35,684 nt of DNA from a virus: IMG/VR virus record IMGVR_UViG_3300020215_000104, positions 1 through 35,684 of that record; one strand, written 5' to 3'. The translations under genes were made by a program, and so were the position numbers. Numbering within the stretch: the stretch's first letter is position 1; every line of letters starts with the position of its first letter. The notes beneath the pieces were generated by a model. That model saw only the letters and a program-made list of their open reading frames with translations. It was not told the DNA's origin and made no database searches. Positions 17,369 through 33,330 of the stretch are shown here, one piece after another.

Positions 17369-17595
17369 CCAGACTCGGTACCACAGACCGGATCCGACAT
17401 CGTCTGAATCCGGCCTGTTTTGTCCATTTCCGTCCCCCACAGTTTGCGCGGCTTACAAGGCGAAACCCGCGTCTTTATTGGAGGAAAATGACACGAAAGT
17501 GTTGGGGCGGATGACGGGTCTCGAAGGCGTCAGCCGCGCTGATAACTACTTATCCCGCTGATCGTTAGCGCCGGGTCCAGACTCGGGAACCACAG
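17369..17595. repeat. Imperfect direct repeat pair beside the integrase gene
   Basis: CCAGACTCGGTACCACAG at 17369-17386 recurs as CCAGACTCGGGAACCACAG at 17577-17595, differing by one substitution and one insertion. The second copy lies inside the 3' end of the integrase gene. The 208-nt spacing and the place next to the recombinase are compatible with an attachment or arm-binding site, but no core identity with a host gene can be tested here. The gap 17424-17545 also holds two tiny frames, at about 17488, with a GGAGGAAA before the first ATG; I do not call them genes. Confidence 0.35.
17388..17421 (+). terminator. Terminator-like hairpin ending the late operon
   Basis: CCGGAT at 17388-17393 pairs with ATCCGG at 17408-17413; the 14-nt loop contains a further 3-bp GAC/GTC pair. 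CCTGTTTTG follows immediately, giving a short T run. It lies 30 nt after the last plus-strand late gene and before the convergent integrase. It would stop late transcription from entering the integrase gene. The stem is short, so strength is uncertain. Confidence 0.55.
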
Positions 17596-18697
17596 AAAAT
17601 CCCCCAAACCGCCCTTCGAGCGCCTCGCTCATCCGCTGCAACCGGCTGTTCAGGACGGGCACATACATCCGTCGCGTCATGCGCGGATCGGTGTGGCCAG
17701 CGCCGGCCGCGATGTCGTGGAGGTCGATGCCGCGCTCGCTGGCGGTAATCCAGGTCGAGTGCCGCGCCTGGTAGAACCGCACGCCCGCCGGCCAGCCCGC
17801 CGAGCGCAGCGCCCGCACGAAGCCGCCGTGGAAGAACGGCCCCCACGCATTCGCCTCTTTGAAGAGTTGCCAGGCGGCGAGCATATCGTCGTTCAGGTAG
17901 AGGCCGGGGCAGAAGCCGCCTTTGCCGTCCCGCGGCACCCACACGCGCTGCTCGAGATCGACATCGCCCGGTTCGGCGCGCATGACCTCGGACGGGCGCT
18001 TGCCGGTCGACACCAGCACACGGAAGCGGGCGCGCGTCTTGGCGTCCTTCAGGATGCCGGCACGCTCGCGGCGCTGGAGTTCCTGATCGATGGCGATCAT
18101 CGTCGCATCGGGCACGCGCTGGATCGGCGTGCGCGTCACGGGTAAGTGCGCGACGTCATCGCAGGGTGTCGGCGCCTTCGCCCCGTCGAGCACATGGAAC
18201 AGGTGGCGGAGCGTGTCGCAGTAGTGGTTGATCGTCTTGGGCGATAGCGGGCCGGTATGCACGCGGCGCCGTTTGGTCGGCTGCGGGCGATCCGGCCGGC
18301 CTTCGGTGAGCCAGTAGACGCGGGCGGCGAGGACATCGGCGCTCGTGAGGCGGTGCCGGTAGACGTTGCCGTAGAGTTCGCACCACGCGACTAGGTGATC
18401 CTCGCGATCGTCGGCCGACTTCAGGTGCGCGACCAGCTTCAGGTATCGGGCGGCATCGCGGCGTAGGGTGTACAGCTCCGCGGCGGGTGTGGCCTCCCGG
18501 CCCTTGGCGGTCAGCTCGGCGTGCTTGGCCTTCAGCTCTTTGAGGGTCGAGTCGGGCGGCATCCGCTCGGAATACGGCACGCCGCCCACGGTCACGCGGA
18601 CTTCGTAGCTGCTGCCCTTCTGGCCGTCCTTGCCGTCCTTCGAGCCGTCGCGATAAATGCCTTTCGCGACGCGGACGCGCTTACCGACGCGGGGCAT
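17546..18697 (-). CDS. int: Tyrosine-type site-specific integrase
   Basis: The protein has 383 residues and is read on the minus strand. It joins an N-terminal DNA-binding part (residues 1-60, basic), a SAM-like core-binding domain (about 80-185) and a catalytic domain (about 195-370). Catalytic residues are visible: Arg234 in 'STGKRPSEVM', Lys259 in 'RDGKGG', Arg312 and His313 in 'FYQARHSTWI', His335 in 'GAGHTD' and the nucleophile Tyr345 in 'RRMYVPV'. The usual first His of box II is replaced by Tyr309, a tolerated variant. It would integrate or excise the phage genome. It converges with the late operon. Confidence 0.93.
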   Translation of the reverse strand: MPRVGKRVRVAKGIYRDGSKDGKDGQKGSSYEVRVTVGGVPYSERMPPDSTLKELKAKHAELTAKGREATPAAELYTLRRDAARYLKLVAHLKSADDREDHLVAWCELYGNVYRHRLTSADVLAARVYWLTEGRPDRPQPTKRRRVHTGPLSPKTINHYCDTLRHLFHVLDGAKAPTPCDDVAHLPVTRTPIQRVPDATMIAIDQELQRRERAGILKDAKTRARFRVLVSTGKRPSEVMRAEPGDVDLEQRVWVPRDGKGGFCPGLYLNDDMLAAWQLFKEANAWGPFFHGGFVRALRSAGWPAGVRFYQARHSTWITASERGIDLHDIAAGAGHTDPRMTRRMYVPVLNSRLQRMSEALEGRFGGFSVVPESGPGANDQRDK

Positions 18698-27287: not shown

Positions 27288-27710
27288 ATGCAGTTGACGA
27301 TGACCAGCCCATGTCCCAAATGCCCGTTCCGAACAGACATCGCGCCATACCTGCGCGCGAGCCGGGCGGCTGAGATCGCTGATGGCCTGACGCGCCTCCA
27401 AGGCTCGTTCCAGTGTCACGCGACGGTGGACTACTCGGGTGACGAGCCACGCGAGGATACGCCTAATGCGCAGCACTGCGCCGGGGCGCTGATCGTGCTG
27501 GAGCGGATGAACCGCCCGAACCAGTTGATGCGCTGGATGGAGCGGATCGGCGCCTATGACCGTCGCGGGCTCCAGATGGATGCCCAGGTATTTGCGTCGA
27601 TGCGGGCGTTCATCGCAGCCCATGTTGCCAGCGGTCGGGCGCGTCCGGTTGCGCGGAAGGCAGACGCGAAGCCCTCGCCGCGCCGCAGATCCAAGAAGGG
27701 TGCGAAGTGA
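27288..27710 (+). CDS. DUF6283 family protein
   Basis: The protein has 140 residues. 'SPCPKCPFRTDIAPYLRASR' begins the DUF6283 signature, 'SFQCHATVDY' supplies Cys and His, 'AQHCAGALIVL' a further Cys, and 'QLMRWMERIGAYDRRGLQMD' closes it. The four Cys and His likely bind zinc. The C-terminus is a Lys/Arg-rich tail from 27660 that overlies the dispersed repeat copy. Function of the family is not established. The start could also be the ATG at 27300. Confidence 0.75.
   Translation: MQLTMTSPCPKCPFRTDIAPYLRASRAAEIADGLTRLQGSFQCHATVDYSGDEPREDTPNAQHCAGALIVLERMNRPNQLMRWMERIGAYDRRGLQMDAQVFASMRAFIAAHVASGRARPVARKADAKPSPRRRSKKGAK
27660..27699 (+). repeat. Dispersed repeat, copy 2 (gene 3' end)
   Basis: A 40-nt stretch (starting GCAGACGCGAAGCCCTCGCC) matches 21563-21601 at about 36 positions. 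Here it is read in frame as a basic tail 'ADAKPSPRRRSKKG', whereas in the copy at 21563 another frame is used (GREAVPAPQIQK). Confidence 0.75.
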
Positions 27711-27835
27711 AGCCGAGTTACGACGCGATCCAGAAGGGGGCGGTGTTGACGACGTGCCTGCGCTGTGGGCGGTCCTACTACATGACCCATCCCCAGCCCT
27801 ATTGTCAGACGTGCCGAGAGCAGGAGCAGAAGTGA
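27707..27835 (+). CDS. Small zinc-ribbon protein
   Basis: The protein has 42 residues from the GTG at 27707, overlapping the upstream stop. It is a single four-Cys zinc ribbon, 'TTCLRCGRSYYMTHPQPYCQ' plus 'TCREQEQK', with CxxC pairs 15 residues apart. Its stop overlaps the GTG of the methyltransferase gene. It might be a regulator or an accessory protein. No family was recognised. Confidence 0.6.
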   Translation: MKPSYDAIQKGAVLTTCLRCGRSYYMTHPQPYCQTCREQEQK

Positions 27836-29580
27836 CCTCAACCCTGTTGCACGGCGACAGCCGCGACGTGCTGGCGACCTTACCGGAGGCGTCCCTCGAC
27901 GCTTGCGTGACGGATCCGCCCTACGAGCTTGGCTTCATGGGGAAGGCGTGGGACCGCAGCGGTATCGCGTTCGATCCCGCGTTCTGGCGGCTGGTGTTCC
28001 GCGTAATGAAACCGGGCGCGCATCTGCTCGCCTGTGGCGGGACGCGCACCTATCACCGGATGGCGAGCGCCATCGAGGATGCGGGCTTTGAGATTCGCGA
28101 TTCACTGGCGTGGTTGTATTCGACTGGATTCCCTAAGAGCCTGAATGTCTCCGTCAACGATGCCTTCTGCCAATGCACACCGTCCGCGCAGACGGCCGAA
28201 CGTGTCCTGCGATCTGTGTGGCGCGGGCATGTATCGGCGTCCGTCGACGCTGGCGACGAACGCGGGGAAGTTCTGTTCACGGGCTTGCAGGAACCGAGCG
28301 CACCGACCGACGGGCCGCAGGGGTCCGAACCCCAGATTGCAGGGGCCGCGCAATCCGGCATGGAAGGGGGGTGTGACGGTGTTCCGCAAGCATGGGAACT
28401 ACAAGCCGATCACGTACGTGCGGTGCCCGCCGGAGTTTCTAGCGATGGCGCGTGCGGACGGGTATGTGATGGCACACCGGCTCATCATGGCGCGATTGGT
28501 AGGGCGCCCGCTGATGCGAGTCGAAGTGGTGCATCACGTCAACCACAACCCGCAGGACAACGCACCGGAGAACCTGGAACTGTGGCCGGACAACCGCTCG
28601 CACAAGCTGGCGGAGCATGGCCGGTTTGTTCTCGGTGTCGCAAACCTGTTGTGCCCGAAGGACTCGGCACGGCGCTGAAACCGGCGTATGAGCCGATTGT
28701 GCTGGCGCGCAAGCCGTTCAAGGGCAATGTGGCCGGGAACGTGGCGAAGTTCGGGACCGGGGCGCTGAACATCGACGCCTGCAGGGTCGCGAGCGGGGCC
28801 GACCACGCGGAGAAATGCGCGTCTGTAGTGGGCCTTGCATCGAATCGCAACGGGAACTGTTACGGCGAGTGGACGGGCGAACGCGAGGACTCCTACAGCC
28901 AGCTTGGCCGCTGGCCTGCGAATGTCTGCCTCGATGACCTCGCCGCGCTGGTGCTGGACGAACAGAGCGGGGACGTCGGCGGCGGCATCCCGAGTGGCGA
29001 GCGCAATGGGCCATCGTGGGACGGCGGCGGTGGGTGGGCAGCGTACAAGTCCCAAACGGGACACGAAGATTTCGGCGGCGCCTCCCGCTTCTTCTACGTC
29101 GCCAAGCCCTCCCGCGAAGAACGCGACTACGGCTGTGATGACCTGCAGGCGCGCACGGCGGGCGAAGCCACGCACCGGGACGACGGCACGGCTGGCTTGA
29201 ACAGCCCGCGCGCCGGCTCAGGCCGCACCGGAGGCGCCCGCAACATCCATCCAACCGTGAAGCCCGTCGAGTTGATGCGCTGGCTGGTGCGGCTGGTGAC
29301 GCCGCCCAACGGCACCGTGCTCGATCCGTTCATGGGCAGCGGCACGACCGGCATGGCCTGCAAGTACGAGCAGCGCGGATTCATCGGCATCGAGCGGGAG
29401 GCCGACTACCTCGAGATTGCCCGGCGACGGATTGCGGCGGTGGCGCCGCTGTTTGGAGCGCCGCAGTTAGCTCCGGCCGGCGACGCGGTAGCCCGCGCCG
29501 TCTCGGGTCAGGCAGAGCCGAACACGCGCGCATCTAAAAGCTCTTCGCTTTTTCCTGATGGCACTGGAGAAGCCGCATGA
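27832..29580 (+). CDS. Amino-DNA methyltransferase (N4-C/N6-A, beta-class order), interrupted by nested HNH frame
   Basis: The frame has 582 residues from the GTG at 27832. Motif IV (DPPY) is at 28-31 in 'VTDPPYELGFMGKAWD', and the AdoMet motif I (DPFMGSGTT) is at 498-506, an order typical of beta-class N6-adenine/N4-cytosine methyltransferases. Homologous-looking sequence runs to about residue 107 ('WLYSTGFPKSLNVS') and resumes at about 280 ('GTALKPAYEPIVLARKP'). The intervening roughly 170 residues are low-complexity and lie over an HNH endonuclease frame. Whether this insert is translated, bypassed or breaks the enzyme cannot be told from sequence alone. It likely protects phage DNA from restriction. 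Confidence 0.85.
   Translation: MTSTLLHGDSRDVLATLPEASLDACVTDPPYELGFMGKAWDRSGIAFDPAFWRLVFRVMKPGAHLLACGGTRTYHRMASAIEDAGFEIRDSLAWLYSTGFPKSLNVSVNDAFCQCTPSAQTAERVLRSVWRGHVSASVDAGDERGEVLFTGLQEPSAPTDGPQGSEPQIAGAAQSGMEGGCDGVPQAWELQADHVRAVPAGVSSDGACGRVCDGTPAHHGAIGRAPADASRSGASRQPQPAGQRTGEPGTVAGQPLAQAGGAWPVCSRCRKPVVPEGLGTALKPAYEPIVLARKPFKGNVAGNVAKFGTGALNIDACRVASGADHAEKCASVVGLASNRNGNCYGEWTGEREDSYSQLGRWPANVCLDDLAALVLDEQSGDVGGGIPSGERNGPSWDGGGGWAAYKSQTGHEDFGGASRFFYVAKPSREERDYGCDDLQARTAGEATHRDDGTAGLNSPRAGSGRTGGARNIHPTVKPVELMRWLVRLVTPPNGTVLDPFMGSGTTGMACKYEQRGFIGIEREADYLEIARRRIAAVAPLFGAPQLAPAGDAVARAVSGQAEPNTRASKSSSLFPDGTGEAA
28160..28678 (+). CDS. HNH endonuclease nested inside the methyltransferase gene
   Basis: The frame has 172 residues from the ATG at 28160 (or five more from 28145) and lies in the +1 frame of the methyltransferase. 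It has 'SCDLCGAGMYRRPSTLATNA' and 'KFCSRACRNRA' (four-Cys zinc finger), 'NPAWKGGV', 'DGYVMAHRLIMARLVGRPLM' and the HNH core 'VEVVHHVNHNPQDNAPENLE', then 'LWPDNRSHKLAEHG'. This is the standard layout of phage free-standing HNH homing endonucleases. It ends inside resumed methyltransferase sequence. No ribosome-binding site is obvious before the ATG. Confidence 0.85.
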   Translation: MPSANAHRPRRRPNVSCDLCGAGMYRRPSTLATNAGKFCSRACRNRAHRPTGRRGPNPRLQGPRNPAWKGGVTVFRKHGNYKPITYVRCPPEFLAMARADGYVMAHRLIMARLVGRPLMRVEVVHHVNHNPQDNAPENLELWPDNRSHKLAEHGRFVLGVANLLCPKDSARR

Positions 29581-30247: not shown

Positions 30248-31162
30248 ATGCCGGCTGACCGGATGTTCCACAAGCGACTCGGGCACTCGCAGAAAGTGTC
30301 CGCGCTGACCGATTTTGAATATCGCGTCTGGTCGCAATACCAGCTGTCGGCGGATGACTTCGGGGTGATGCGGAAGTCCGCCGTGCAACTCCAGGCGGAC
30401 AATGACAACCTCGCGAAGCGTTCAGCGACCACGATTCATCGAGCTTTGAAGCATCTGGTTGAAGTCGGGCTGTTGGTCCGCTTCGATCACCAGCTCCAGA
30501 GCTACGTCTGTCAGCGAGACTGGCAGGATTTCCAAAAGGTCACGTACCCATCCAAGACCATCAACCCGAAGCCGCCAGCCGACCTGATCGCGACGTTTTC
30601 CGAACAAACTCGCGAGTTGTTCGAGCTGCACCCCGGCGCACGCAAGCTGCTGACGAAGAAAAACTCCGAGAAAACTTCAGAAGAACTTCTGGAAAACTCC
30701 GGGAAAACTTCAGAAACATTTTCTTCCCCGCGCGCGTGCGCGCCCGCGAAACGGCTAACGGCTAACGGCTCAGGGCTAACGGCTCATGGCTTGGAAGGGG
30801 GAGCGGGGGGAACCGCGCCGCTCGATCTGTGGCTGCGCGAGCTGCAGGACTCGCGGTATCCCTCCCGCCGCGTGACGCGCAATCACATCACGTCCACCGC
30901 GTTCGTCGACGCCATGCTCGGCTATCCCGAAGGACCGCACGCGGCGTGGGCGCTGTTGTGCGCGAACCTGGCGGCCAACATCGCCAGCCACGAATGGCGC
31001 GTTCGCGGCTACGTGCCGAAGCTCGAGAACTACCTGCGCGACGGGTTGTGGCGGAACGACCCGCATCCCGTGAACGCGCCGGCCGCCGAACAACTCACCG
31101 CCAAGACGAATCGCACCCTGTCGGCCGCGGCCGAGATTCTTGGGGAACGGAGGCCCGCATGA
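30248..31162 (+). CDS. Replication initiator-like protein with internal origin-like repeats
   Basis: The protein has 304 residues. The ATG at 30248 has a strong AGGAGG 8 nt upstream; upstream in-frame ATG codons lack this. Residues 1-110 look like a winged-helix DNA-binding domain ('ALTDFEYRVWSQYQLSADDF', 'TTIHRALKHLVEVGLLVRFD'). A linker at about 135-185 is encoded by tandem repeats (see 30660 and 30753). The C-terminal 110 residues are helical ('GPHAAWALLCANLAANIASH', 'GYVPKLENYLRDGLW') as in helicase-recruiting replication proteins. The preceding 182-nt gap (30066-30247) shows only a 6-bp hairpin at 30154-30176. Confidence 0.75.
   Translation: MPADRMFHKRLGHSQKVSALTDFEYRVWSQYQLSADDFGVMRKSAVQLQADNDNLAKRSATTIHRALKHLVEVGLLVRFDHQLQSYVCQRDWQDFQKVTYPSKTINPKPPADLIATFSEQTRELFELHPGARKLLTKKNSEKTSEELLENSGKTSETFSSPRACAPAKRLTANGSGLTAHGLEGGAGGTAPLDLWLRELQDSRYPSRRVTRNHITSTAFVDAMLGYPEGPHAAWALLCANLAANIASHEWRVRGYVPKLENYLRDGLWRNDPHPVNAPAAEQLTAKTNRTLSAAAEILGERRPA
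30660..30714 (+). repeat. Five tandem 11-bp A-tract repeats (origin-like)
   Basis: The units are AAAACTCCGAG, AAAACTTCAGA, AGAACTTCTGG, AAAACTCCGGG and AAAACTTCAGA, each 11 bp, at 30660-30714. A longer 23-bp view gives 30660-30682 and 30693-30715 with one mismatch and 33-bp spacing. Since 11 is not a multiple of 3, protein coding cannot explain the periodicity. A-tracts repeated once per helical turn produce bent DNA. The region is AT-rich in a GC-rich genome, as expected for an origin unwinding element. Confidence 0.8.
30753..30794 (+). repeat. Six tandem 7-bp repeats (iteron-like)
   Basis: GGCTAAC, GGCTAAC, GGCTCAG, GGCTAAC, GGCTCAT and GGCTTGG follow one another without gaps. The last units are degenerate. 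They lie 39 nt after the A-tract array, inside the same gene, and are separated from it by an alternating CG/TG stretch (30729-30743). A 7-bp period does not fit codons. They may be binding sites for the initiator protein encoded by the same gene. Confidence 0.75.
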
Positions 31163-31671
31163 CCGTCGAAGAATGCACCGCCATCCTCGCGCCCGTCGCG
31201 CTGGCCCTGAGAGCCGACGTCGACGCGCCGACCTTCCGTGCCTATGCACGGGCACTCGAAAACGTCCCTGCGGGGCTGCTAGAGGCCGCAGCGGGCAGTC
31301 TGCTCCAGCGTGCGGACGTGAAGTTCTTTCCCACGGCGCCCGAGTGGCGCGGGTTCTGTGAGCAGGAGCGGCGTCGGCTCCTGGCCCTGCACGCCTACGA
31401 CGGCTGCGCGGAGTGCGAAGGATCGAAGGGTTGGCGGGCGGTGCAGGCCGAGCGCGGGCCGGCGGTGGAGAAGTGCCCGTGTCGCCAGCGCCATGCCGAC
31501 AAGCTCGAACGGCTTGGGTTGACCACGGCACCGCTCGCACAGTTGCCCGCGGCGACGGAGCCGGAGGCGGACTACCACGACGAGCCGGAGACGTTCGACG
31601 CGCTGCCGGTTGACGTGCGCGGGCGACTCGGATCAATCGCGAGCGCACACAGCTTGCGGAGGGTGAAGTGA
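31159..31671 (+). CDS. Putative replication accessory protein (helicase-loader position)
   Basis: The protein has 170 residues and its ATGA overlaps the initiator stop. It is mainly helical in the N-terminal part ('TFRAYARALENVPAGLLEAA', 'FFPTAPEWRGFCEQERRRLL'). A zinc-like Cys set follows ('DGCAECEGSKGWRAV' and 'EKCPCRQRH'). The N-terminal features ('F..Y...L......LL.AA....') resemble lambda-P-like or DUF-type helicase loaders that follow initiator genes. That function is inferred from order only. Confidence 0.6.
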   Translation: MTVEECTAILAPVALALRADVDAPTFRAYARALENVPAGLLEAAAGSLLQRADVKFFPTAPEWRGFCEQERRRLLALHAYDGCAECEGSKGWRAVQAERGPAVEKCPCRQRHADKLERLGLTTAPLAQLPAATEPEADYHDEPETFDALPVDVRGRLGSIASAHSLRRVK

Positions 31672-31841: not shown

Positions 31842-32464
31842 CAGCCGCAAATATGGATCGACGCAATGAGCAGGTCCGCCCGGCCTTGGGTCGGCCGCCA
31901 CGATTGGTGCCTGGTCCGCCGGTCCTGTGCCGCACCTGTCAGACGGTCCGTATCGCGCCGTCGCACGCGCAGAACGGCTACGTCAACTGCCGGGCCTGCC
32001 GCCCCCCGCGCCGGCCGATCGAATACGTGCCCTGTCCGTGTGGCACCGGCCAGATCCGCGGCGGGGACTACCGCAACGGCACCCGGCGCTGCCGGACCTG
32101 TATCGGGGCGCAGGGCATCGGCGGACGGAAGGCGAGCGCGTATCACCCGTGCGGCTGCGGCGGCCAGATCGCGGCGAGCGCGTGGGCGAGCGGCTTGCGG
32201 CGGTGTCGGGCCTGTCGGGCACAGCAGCCGGGCGCCATGCCGCGGACCCGGACGCCACGGGAGGCCGTCGTGCGGCGGCCCAGGCCTCGGTTGGTGCAGT
32301 CCTCGACGCCGTCCTGGTGGATGACGGTGGATCGCTCCGGCTTCACCGCACGAGCGGAGCAGGAAGTGACCCGGATGCAGGCGAGTCCGAAGGGCTCCTA
32401 CATCCCCTACATGGGGGAAGCGATGGAGATCCGATCCCACCGATCGCAGGGAGAGGCGGCGTGA
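31838..32464 (+). CDS. Multi-zinc-ribbon protein
   Basis: The protein has 208 residues. It has a series of Cys pairs: 'CRTCQTVRIA', 'NCRACRPP', 'VPCPCGTGQI', 'RCRTCIGAQ', 'HPCGCGGQI' and 'RCRACRAQQ'. These suggest two or three zinc ribbons within residues 30-125, with basic linkers. The C-terminal 80 residues are Arg/Ser-rich. It may bind nucleic acid. It precedes the cytosine methyltransferase, with a 4-nt overlap. No family was recognised. Confidence 0.6.
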   Translation: MTAANMDRRNEQVRPALGRPPRLVPGPPVLCRTCQTVRIAPSHAQNGYVNCRACRPPRRPIEYVPCPCGTGQIRGGDYRNGTRRCRTCIGAQGIGGRKASAYHPCGCGGQIAASAWASGLRRCRACRAQQPGAMPRTRTPREAVVRRPRPRLVQSSTPSWWMTVDRSGFTARAEQEVTRMQASPKGSYIPYMGEAMEIRSHRSQGEAA

Positions 32465-33330
32465 GCCTCACGGTCGGGTCGCTGTTCGCTGGTATTGGCG
32501 GGTTTGATCTCGGGCTGGAACGAGCCGGGATGCAGGTCAAGTGGCAGGTTGAGATCAATCCGTTCTGCCGGCGGGTGCTCGAGAAACACTGGCCGGGTGT
32601 GAGGCGTTACGAAGATGTCCGAACGGTTGGAGCAGAGCTTGAGCGAGTCGACGTCATCTGCGGCGGATTCCCCTGTCAGGACATCAGCAGCGCCGGCGCC
32701 AAGGCTGGTCTCGATGGCGAGCAGTCCGGTCTTTGGTTCGAGATGTCTCGACTCATTCGCCTCTTACGACCCAGATACGTCGTTGTGGAGAACGTCGCAG
32801 ATCTCCTTTCTCGGGGGCTTGGCCGCGTTCTCGGAGATTTGGCCGCGAGCGGGTATGACGCGGAGTGGGACTGCATACAAGCTGCGGCCATTGGCGCCCC
32901 GCATGGCCGTGACCGTCTCTGGCTCGTCGCTTATCCCCACACCGACAAAGGGCGACGCGAAATCGGCGGCCAACGCGACAGCACGACGCTTCAGGGTGCC
33001 GCCCACGGGAGTACACGCCGGCACGACCTTGACCGACTACGTACGGATGTACCCAACGCCGATGGCGCGCACCAAGGGTGGGCGCGGCGGTGGACGGGGC
33101 AAGGGATCGATTTCGAGAGGTGGCGGGCTGATGCTCGACAACGTGCTGGGTGGCAAACCGAACCCGACATTCGTCGAGTGGCTGATGGGGTATCCCCTGG
33201 GATGGACAACGCTCGACTCGCCGCTCTCGGCAACGCCATCGTCCCATTCATCGCCGAGTGGATCGGATACCGGATCCTCGAAGCGGAAGCGGCAACAGTA
33301 ACGGACGCAGGAGATACCCATGCAGCGTGA
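32461..33330 (+). CDS. dcm: Cytosine-5 DNA methyltransferase
   Basis: The protein has 289 residues from the GTG at 32461. The canonical C5 motifs are present: I 'FAGIGG' at 9-14, IV 'GGFPCQDIS' with the catalytic Cys72, VI 'ENV' at 110-112, VIII 'QAAAIGAPHGRDRLW' at 140-154, and X 'RLAALGNAIVP' near 259. The target recognition region (about 160-240) is short, basic and Arg/Gly-rich. It methylates host- or self-specific sites, probably to evade restriction. A second protein-like frame covers most of the gene. There is no accompanying restriction enzyme. Confidence 0.92.
   Translation: MSLTVGSLFAGIGGFDLGLERAGMQVKWQVEINPFCRRVLEKHWPGVRRYEDVRTVGAELERVDVICGGFPCQDISSAGAKAGLDGEQSGLWFEMSRLIRLLRPRYVVVENVADLLSRGLGRVLGDLAASGYDAEWDCIQAAAIGAPHGRDRLWLVAYPHTDKGRREIGGQRDSTTLQGAAHGSTRRHDLDRLRTDVPNADGAHQGWARRWTGQGIDFERWRADARQRAGWQTEPDIRRVADGVSPGMDNARLAALGNAIVPFIAEWIGYRILEAEAATVTDAGDTHAA
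32615..33301 (+). CDS. Second protein-like frame overprinted on the cytosine methyltransferase gene
   Basis: The frame has 228 residues from the ATG at 32615, in a different frame of the same strand. It contains stretches such as 'YDPDTSLWRTSQISFLGG', 'EIWPRAGMTRSGTAYKLRPL', 'SLIPTPTKGDAKSA' and 'NPTFVEWLMGYPLGWTTLD'. These are features I recall from a widespread phage protein family found together with such methyltransferases. That memory is unverified. It lies over motifs IV to X. No strong ribosome-binding site was seen. Translation is uncertain; it may be real overprinting or a preserved artefact of the methyltransferase code. Confidence 0.5.
   Translation: MSERLEQSLSESTSSAADSPVRTSAAPAPRLVSMASSPVFGSRCLDSFASYDPDTSLWRTSQISFLGGLAAFSEIWPRAGMTRSGTAYKLRPLAPRMAVTVSGSSLIPTPTKGDAKSAANATARRFRVPPTGVHAGTTLTDYVRMYPTPMARTKGGRGGGRGKGSISRGGGLMLDNVLGGKPNPTFVEWLMGYPLGWTTLDSPLSATPSSHSSPSGSDTGSSKRKRQQ

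Follow-up and report, generated by a model that had tools for sequence, protein, structure and literature searches.

The window, that is, the whole stretch of DNA analysed here, was a virus record from IMG/VR, 35,684 bases long. It carried a replication gene, as the original prediction had claimed, and the N-terminal half of its product matched phrog_1408 (E 2.9e-8) and phrog_2149 (E 4.7e-8), both of which are annotated as 'replication initiation protein'. The only Pfam matches of the protein were winged-helix families, all below threshold. Neither Phage_rep_O nor PF06970 (RepA_N) was matched at E<=0.1 by the window protein or by the N-domains of the family, and a PDB sequence search with the initiator returned spurious matches only. 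The AlphaFold2 prediction of 16 homologous N-domains gave a confident fold (pLDDT 86.5). The best viral matches of this fold were phage replisome organizers ('Replisome organizer', E 1.7e-6), and its top PDB match, which was weak (E 0.025, TM 0.43, rmsd 8.1), was the plasmid initiator 4pt7_B.

The protein encoded directly downstream of the initiator had no Pfam match. Among relatives, the gene in the slot after the initiator encoded a DnaB helicase in L004 and an IstB/DnaC-like ATPase in L039, and it was annotated as 'helicase loader' in the phages PantheRoc and Che8. By synteny, the product of this gene in the window is a putative helicase loader. An integrase gene was located at 17546-18697. 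Two DNA methyltransferases (27556-29580 and 31978-33330) lay on either side of the block containing the resolvase and the initiator, and a third methyltransferase-like frame (32615-33301) overlapped the second of the two methyltransferases. No Rfam families or tRNAs were found in the window. The features of the locus are listed in Table 1.

Table 1. Features of the initiator locus in the window.
Feature	Position	Strand	Description or basis
Replication initiator gene, 304 aa	30248..31162	+	N-terminal winged-helix domain, array-bearing linker, variable C-terminal domain
Conserved N-terminal domain (aa 1-131), DNA-binding by prediction	30248..30640	+	44-58% identity between the window protein and 15 homologues
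Most curved segment of the contig (predicted) and second least stable 70-bp segment	30655..30724		Spans array 1
Array 1, five iteron-like 11-bp units	30660..30714	+	Core YTCNGRR, spacing of one helical turn, lattice kept in relatives
CG/TG alternating tract between the arrays	about 30729..30748		Sequence; most Acidobacteriota-type relatives have a comparable CG tract
Array 2, six 7-bp units, consensus GGCTAAC	30753..30794	+	Sequence; lag-7 statistic; relatives
G-rich tract AAGGGGGAGCGGGGGG	30793..30813	+	Sequence; comparable tracts after array 2 in several relatives
Downstream gene, helicase-loader position	31159..31671	+	Overlaps the initiator stop (ATGA); relatives in L017, L019

The five units of array 1 started at 30660, 30671, 30682, 30693, and 30704 in exact phase and read, in order, AAAACTCCGAG, AAAACTTCAGA, AGAACTTCTGG, AAAACTCCGGG, and AAAACTTCAGA. 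They had been described as AAAAC-type 11-mers, which fitted the array except for the third unit, which reads AGAAC. The conserved part of the 11-mer was an imperfect TTCNGAA palindrome (YTCNGRR in the window) and not the A-tract. The six units of array 2 started at 30753, 30760, 30767, 30774, 30781, and 30788; three were exact and three imperfect (GGCTAAC, GGCTAAC, GGCTCAG, GGCTAAC, GGCTCAT, and GGCTTGG). Thus the in-phase 11-bp units, the CG/TG tract and the 7-bp units of the original prediction were all present, and its remark that neither period is divisible by three, so that the pattern is no protein repeat, was correct. A G-quadruplex as the universal role of array 2 was considered and dismissed, since GGCTAAC holds GG pairs only.

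Local periodicity was scored as the number of matches at a given lag within 44 nt (lag 11) or 35 nt (lag 7). Across the 35.7-kb contig, the highest lag-11 score was 31/44 at 30659, with a runner-up of 24, and the highest lag-7 score was 29/35 at 30750, with a runner-up of 19. The maxima reached in 200 Markov simulations, 29 for lag 11 and 25 for lag 7, were both under the window values. When the codons of the initiator gene were shuffled synonymously, keeping the protein, none of 300 shuffles reached the observed value at either lag. Taken across the entire linker, the lag-11 autocorrelation of the window did not rise significantly above synonymous shuffles (z 0.7), because array 1 occupies only part of the linker; for this reason the local 44-nt statistic was used instead.

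The proposed bend of the DNA was followed up with a simple wedge model. The predicted curvature at 30657 was 140 degrees per 60 bp, the maximum of the contig (mean 29, sd 15.5). In the linkers of relatives it was 47-107 degrees at most, and A-tracts were mostly absent. An intrinsic bend is thus strongly predicted in the window, yet it is not the feature shared by the family. The CG tract and the heptamer array beside array 1 were not AT-rich, and the unstable segment was array 1 itself. Given its low stability and predicted curvature, array 1 of the window may itself aid strand opening. The cumulative GC skew around 30.7 kb, which had been suggested as a check, gave no support: there was no switch at the locus, and the curve climbed through it with a plateau only, which was uninformative.

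Homologues of the initiator came from viral contigs and Vicinamibacteria MAGs, and L046-L048 were obtained from a genome of the same family. Searching the genome contigs with the window protein alone found nothing, and the search succeeded with an alignment of the N-domain. The phylum-wide domain search detected the initiator family in 1/396 genomes, so prophages bearing this initiator are rare. In one Vicinamibacteraceae MAG, the initiator-origin module was present four times, each copy different (L035-L038).

The C-terminal parts of these relatives diverged widely, but their linkers repeatedly carried an 11-bp lattice and then a CG tract, followed in about half of the relatives by a GGCTAAC array. 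In a reduced set of homologues from the protein or domain search, the periodicity of the linker peaked at lags 11, 22, 7, and 14, and these peaks were absent from the N-domain of the same genes. The 11-bp unit in the Acidobacteriota MAGs was a TTCNGAA-type palindrome, repeated in exact phase up to 10 times; in L038, ten consecutive cores were spaced exactly 11 bp apart. Among pairs of TTCNG cores within 46 bp, 133 of 170 were separated by multiples of 11 bp, compared with about 16 expected, although close relatives inflate these counts. The lattice was not significant in L017. Since the copies ran through all three reading frames in the Acidobacteriota-type relatives, the 11-bp units are not a peptide repeat.

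The GGCTAAC array was found at the same place as in the window in eight relatives (L004, L005, L018, L019, L021, and L046-L048). Seven (L020, L022, L023, and L036-L039) lacked it or carried other simple repeats instead. In L015, the array occupied the linker position of the relatives (near 1540-1600) in inverted form, reading GTTAGCC on the gene strand. This again argues that the peptide was not the thing preserved. The arrays were conserved in order and place, with selection on the DNA rather than on the peptide. GGCTAAC heptamers as a general Acidobacteriota repeat were also considered and rejected, as GGCTAACGGCTAACGGC occurred in just 4 of 297 genomes, in all cases outside the initiator gene. 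Arrays of GGCTAAC and related heptamers were seen, rarely, in unrelated contigs, where the DNA holding them was apparently non-coding (L008, L009, L011-L014, and L049-L052). L021 had an extra domain of ~110 residues, nuclease-like by eye, that separated the N-domain from the arrays (gene nt ~390-740).

Starting from the window, a protein search also reached three Mycobacterium phages at 29% identity: Babsiella, Journey, and Xeno. The N-domain of Babsiella in turn retrieved 309 phage records (Mycobacterium, Gordonia, Streptomyces, Corynebacterium, and others), and the arrays were read in 19 of them, e.g., Che8, Babsiella, and Bernal13. Nearly all of these 19 possessed an 11-bp lattice, mostly of the TCGCGA type, which in most was followed directly by (GGGGAACA)n, an array with an 8-bp unit. 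In Austintatious and PSonyx, the second array consisted of the 7-bp unit GGGAACA instead of GGGGAACA. The linker lattice alone failed to exceed synonymous shuffles in some actinophages (e.g., Xavia, MooMoo, and PantheRoc), because spacings of 10 and 11 bp were mixed.

The actinophages had a second, small 11-bp cluster inside the coding region of the N-domain, at gene nt 150-215 (e.g., L064, L066, and L070). Clade by clade its unit was that of the linker: TCGCGA, the Che8 type, or the CTCACTGAGTC type (PSonyx and Austintatious). The 11-mers of the N-domain and the linker shared 17-18 of 18 positions within a clade in many cases, compared with 10-14 across clades and 11-14 in controls; in Babsiella and Bantam, the agreement was weak. 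The 11-bp unit thus differed from phage to phage and changed with the clade of the initiator. The two clusters co-varied, as expected if a single protein reads both.

DNA-only scans led back to the same gene. The motif GGGGAACAGGGGAACAGGGG was found at no fewer than 80 loci in IMG/VR. Among the 80 loci listed, 78 encoded the initiator N-domain and had the array downstream of it, in the linker and on the same strand, and in the remaining two the array was near the end of the locus. These 78 loci comprised about 47 distinct N-domains and many types of 11-mer, and the GGGGAACA array occurred in all three frames. The constancy of array 2 among these loci partly reflects their selection, and the sample selected by protein agreed with it. 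A scan for a lattice of four TTCNGNA units returned 58 loci. The N-domain was present at 10 of these, with the lattice in the linker, 21-204 nt downstream of the N-domain, in all ten cases; the other 48 had no recognisable N-domain, and some were intergenic.

The position within the initiator gene, the partner genes, the palindromic units spaced by one turn and their change with the initiator argue for an origin in which array 1 supplies the initiator iterons. We consider it likely (probability about 0.85) that this region of the window is a bipartite origin in the initiator gene, in which the 11-bp units would be bound by the initiator and the 7/8-bp array would be the unwinding site. The original prediction had likewise read the region as the phage origin, with bent DNA and binding sites for the initiator encoded by the same gene, and this is partly supported. 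In its favour are the initiator gene and the same array layout at the same place in relatives of several phyla, as expected for an origin bound by the product of the gene that contains it; the GC skew lent no support, and the bend, strongly predicted in the window, is not conserved. The arrays probably differ in function: the 11-mers suit predicted binding by the initiator, and the 7-mers are probably not the same binding site.

In the mechanism proposed here, the origin would be nested in the linker-coding part of the initiator gene. The N-terminal winged-helix domain would bind the 11-bp palindromic units, which, lying one turn apart on one face of the helix, would place several initiator molecules side by side. 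The 7-bp array (8-bp in actinophages) would stand in for the unwinding element; the strands would open there, and the product of the following gene would deliver the helicase for loading. Array 2 lies where lambda and SPP1 have an AT-rich unwinding element. It is taken as the putative site of opening and loading because RK2 and similar origins depend on the repeats of their unwinding element, which are bound in single-stranded form.

Several other explanations were weighed against a bipartite origin. It is very unlikely that the arrays are neutral short repeats, generated by slippage, tolerated in a disordered linker and read by nothing. The linker is indeed of low complexity and poorly conserved as protein, and heptamer arrays are known from unrelated intergenic DNA. 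However, periods of 7, 8, and 11 shift the frame with every unit, whereas slippage within a gene should favour multiples of three. Neutral repeats would also have to account for an order and place that stayed constant over phages of several phyla, for the failure of synonymous shuffles to reproduce the pattern, for the inverted array of L015 and for the recurrence of the actinophage unit in a second cluster within the well-folded N-domain. Initiators often autoregulate, and the winged-helix domain has weak matches to repressors; nevertheless, an operator role of the 11-bp array, with the initiator repressing its own operon and no origin being present, is highly improbable. The array is some 400 bp inside the gene, array 2 and the helicase-loader synteny would be left unexplained, and in the precedents of lambda O and SPP1 gp38 an origin is found at exactly such a place.

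A centromere-like partition site in one or both arrays is scarcely credible, since the integrase makes an extrachromosomal prophage unlikely, the proteins scanned included no identifiable partition protein, and the gene concerned is an initiator. The repeats are nonetheless short and helically phased; R1 parC has 11-bp repeats, and the parS of RedRock-type mycobacteriophages has eight copies of an 8-bp motif. There is next to no likelihood that function resides in the intrinsic bend and depends little on the sequence of the units. The curvature maximum of the contig at 30657 speaks for it, but the relatives, mostly without A-tracts, reach only 47-107 degrees, and in them the palindromic core and the 11-bp spacing persist.

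That origins can be located inside initiator genes is already known from lambda O and SPP1 gene 38. The lambda origin contains four iterons of 18-19 bp. It lies in the middle of gene O, in lambda as in its Stx-phage relatives, with direct-repeat iterons that adjoin the unwinding region and are intrinsically bent (PMC7466680). The window resembles it in having arrays in the middle of the initiator gene, iteron-like units beside a second element, and a predicted bend. It differs in that lambda has longer iterons and an AT-rich tract, whereas here the units measure 11 bp, one helical turn, and the tandem 7/8-bp repeats beside them are not rich in AT; moreover, the window protein lacked a Phage_rep_O match. 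In SPP1, the organizer G38P binds direct repeats of oriL in its own gene 38, and gp39 and gp40 are the helicase loader and the helicase (PMC6316719). The likeness to the window is one of layout; SPP1 uses an AT-rich DUE and has a second origin, oriR. The arrangement in the window is best read, by analogy, as a distinct bipartite variant of this plan.

The RepA_N plasmid initiators (pSK41 and pTZ2162) and the PLE RepA combine a DNA-binding N-domain, semi-palindromic iterons and a host-specific C-domain, and 4pt7 is named as a RepA_N structure (PMC7145576). The window resembles them in its predicted DNA-binding N-domain and its palindromic units, and 4pt7 was the top, albeit weak, PDB match of the N-domain fold; however, RepA_N iterons are inverted repeats of 8-9 bp around a poly-A tract, and PF06970 was not matched. 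For the integrase-less mycobacteriophages with RepA-mediated prophage origins, whose initiator has an N-terminal HTH, an origin upstream of or within repA was suggested, and repeated motifs were sought near repA with none reported (Wetzel 2020; PMC7157519). Likened by description, those phages differ from the family of the window, in which the arrays are obvious.

Descriptions of the 11-bp and 7/8-bp arrays were not found in the literature outside subscription journals. The sources searched describe neither the 11-bp lattice of one turn, nor the 7/8-bp array coupled to it, nor the occurrence of both in phages of several phyla. From this signature, an origin can be predicted in several hundred sequenced phages, among them many cultured phages of Mycobacterium and Gordonia, so that the origin becomes directly testable in laboratory strains. 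It also suggests how a GC-rich origin could open without an AT-rich element.

The sequence of the 7/8-bp array seems to track the lineage of the host. As it is common to phages with very different initiators and seemingly follows host lineage, a host factor may read array 2. A further type emerged from the lattice scan, with GTTCCGAACCA units followed by (ATGGAGG)n; the hosts of these phages are guessed to be Alphaproteobacteria. We tentatively entertain, as a possibility somewhat short of an even chance, a bipartite origin code shared across phyla, in which a phage-specific 11-bp array would be coupled with a 7/8-bp array set by host lineage and read by a host replication factor. Under such a code, GGGGAACA would stand for Actinobacteria, GGCTAAC for Acidobacteriota and ATGGAGG for the presumed Alphaproteobacteria, and the 7/8-bp array might replace the AT-rich unwinding element in GC-rich genomes. 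Separating a phage-specific from a host-following array would then distinguish, by sequence alone, the DNA read by the initiator from that read by the host machinery. At a separate locus (L104, 10201-10370), ~16 copies of a perfect 11-bp unit, TTCAGTAGTCG, were found in DNA that is apparently non-coding and belongs to no initiator gene.
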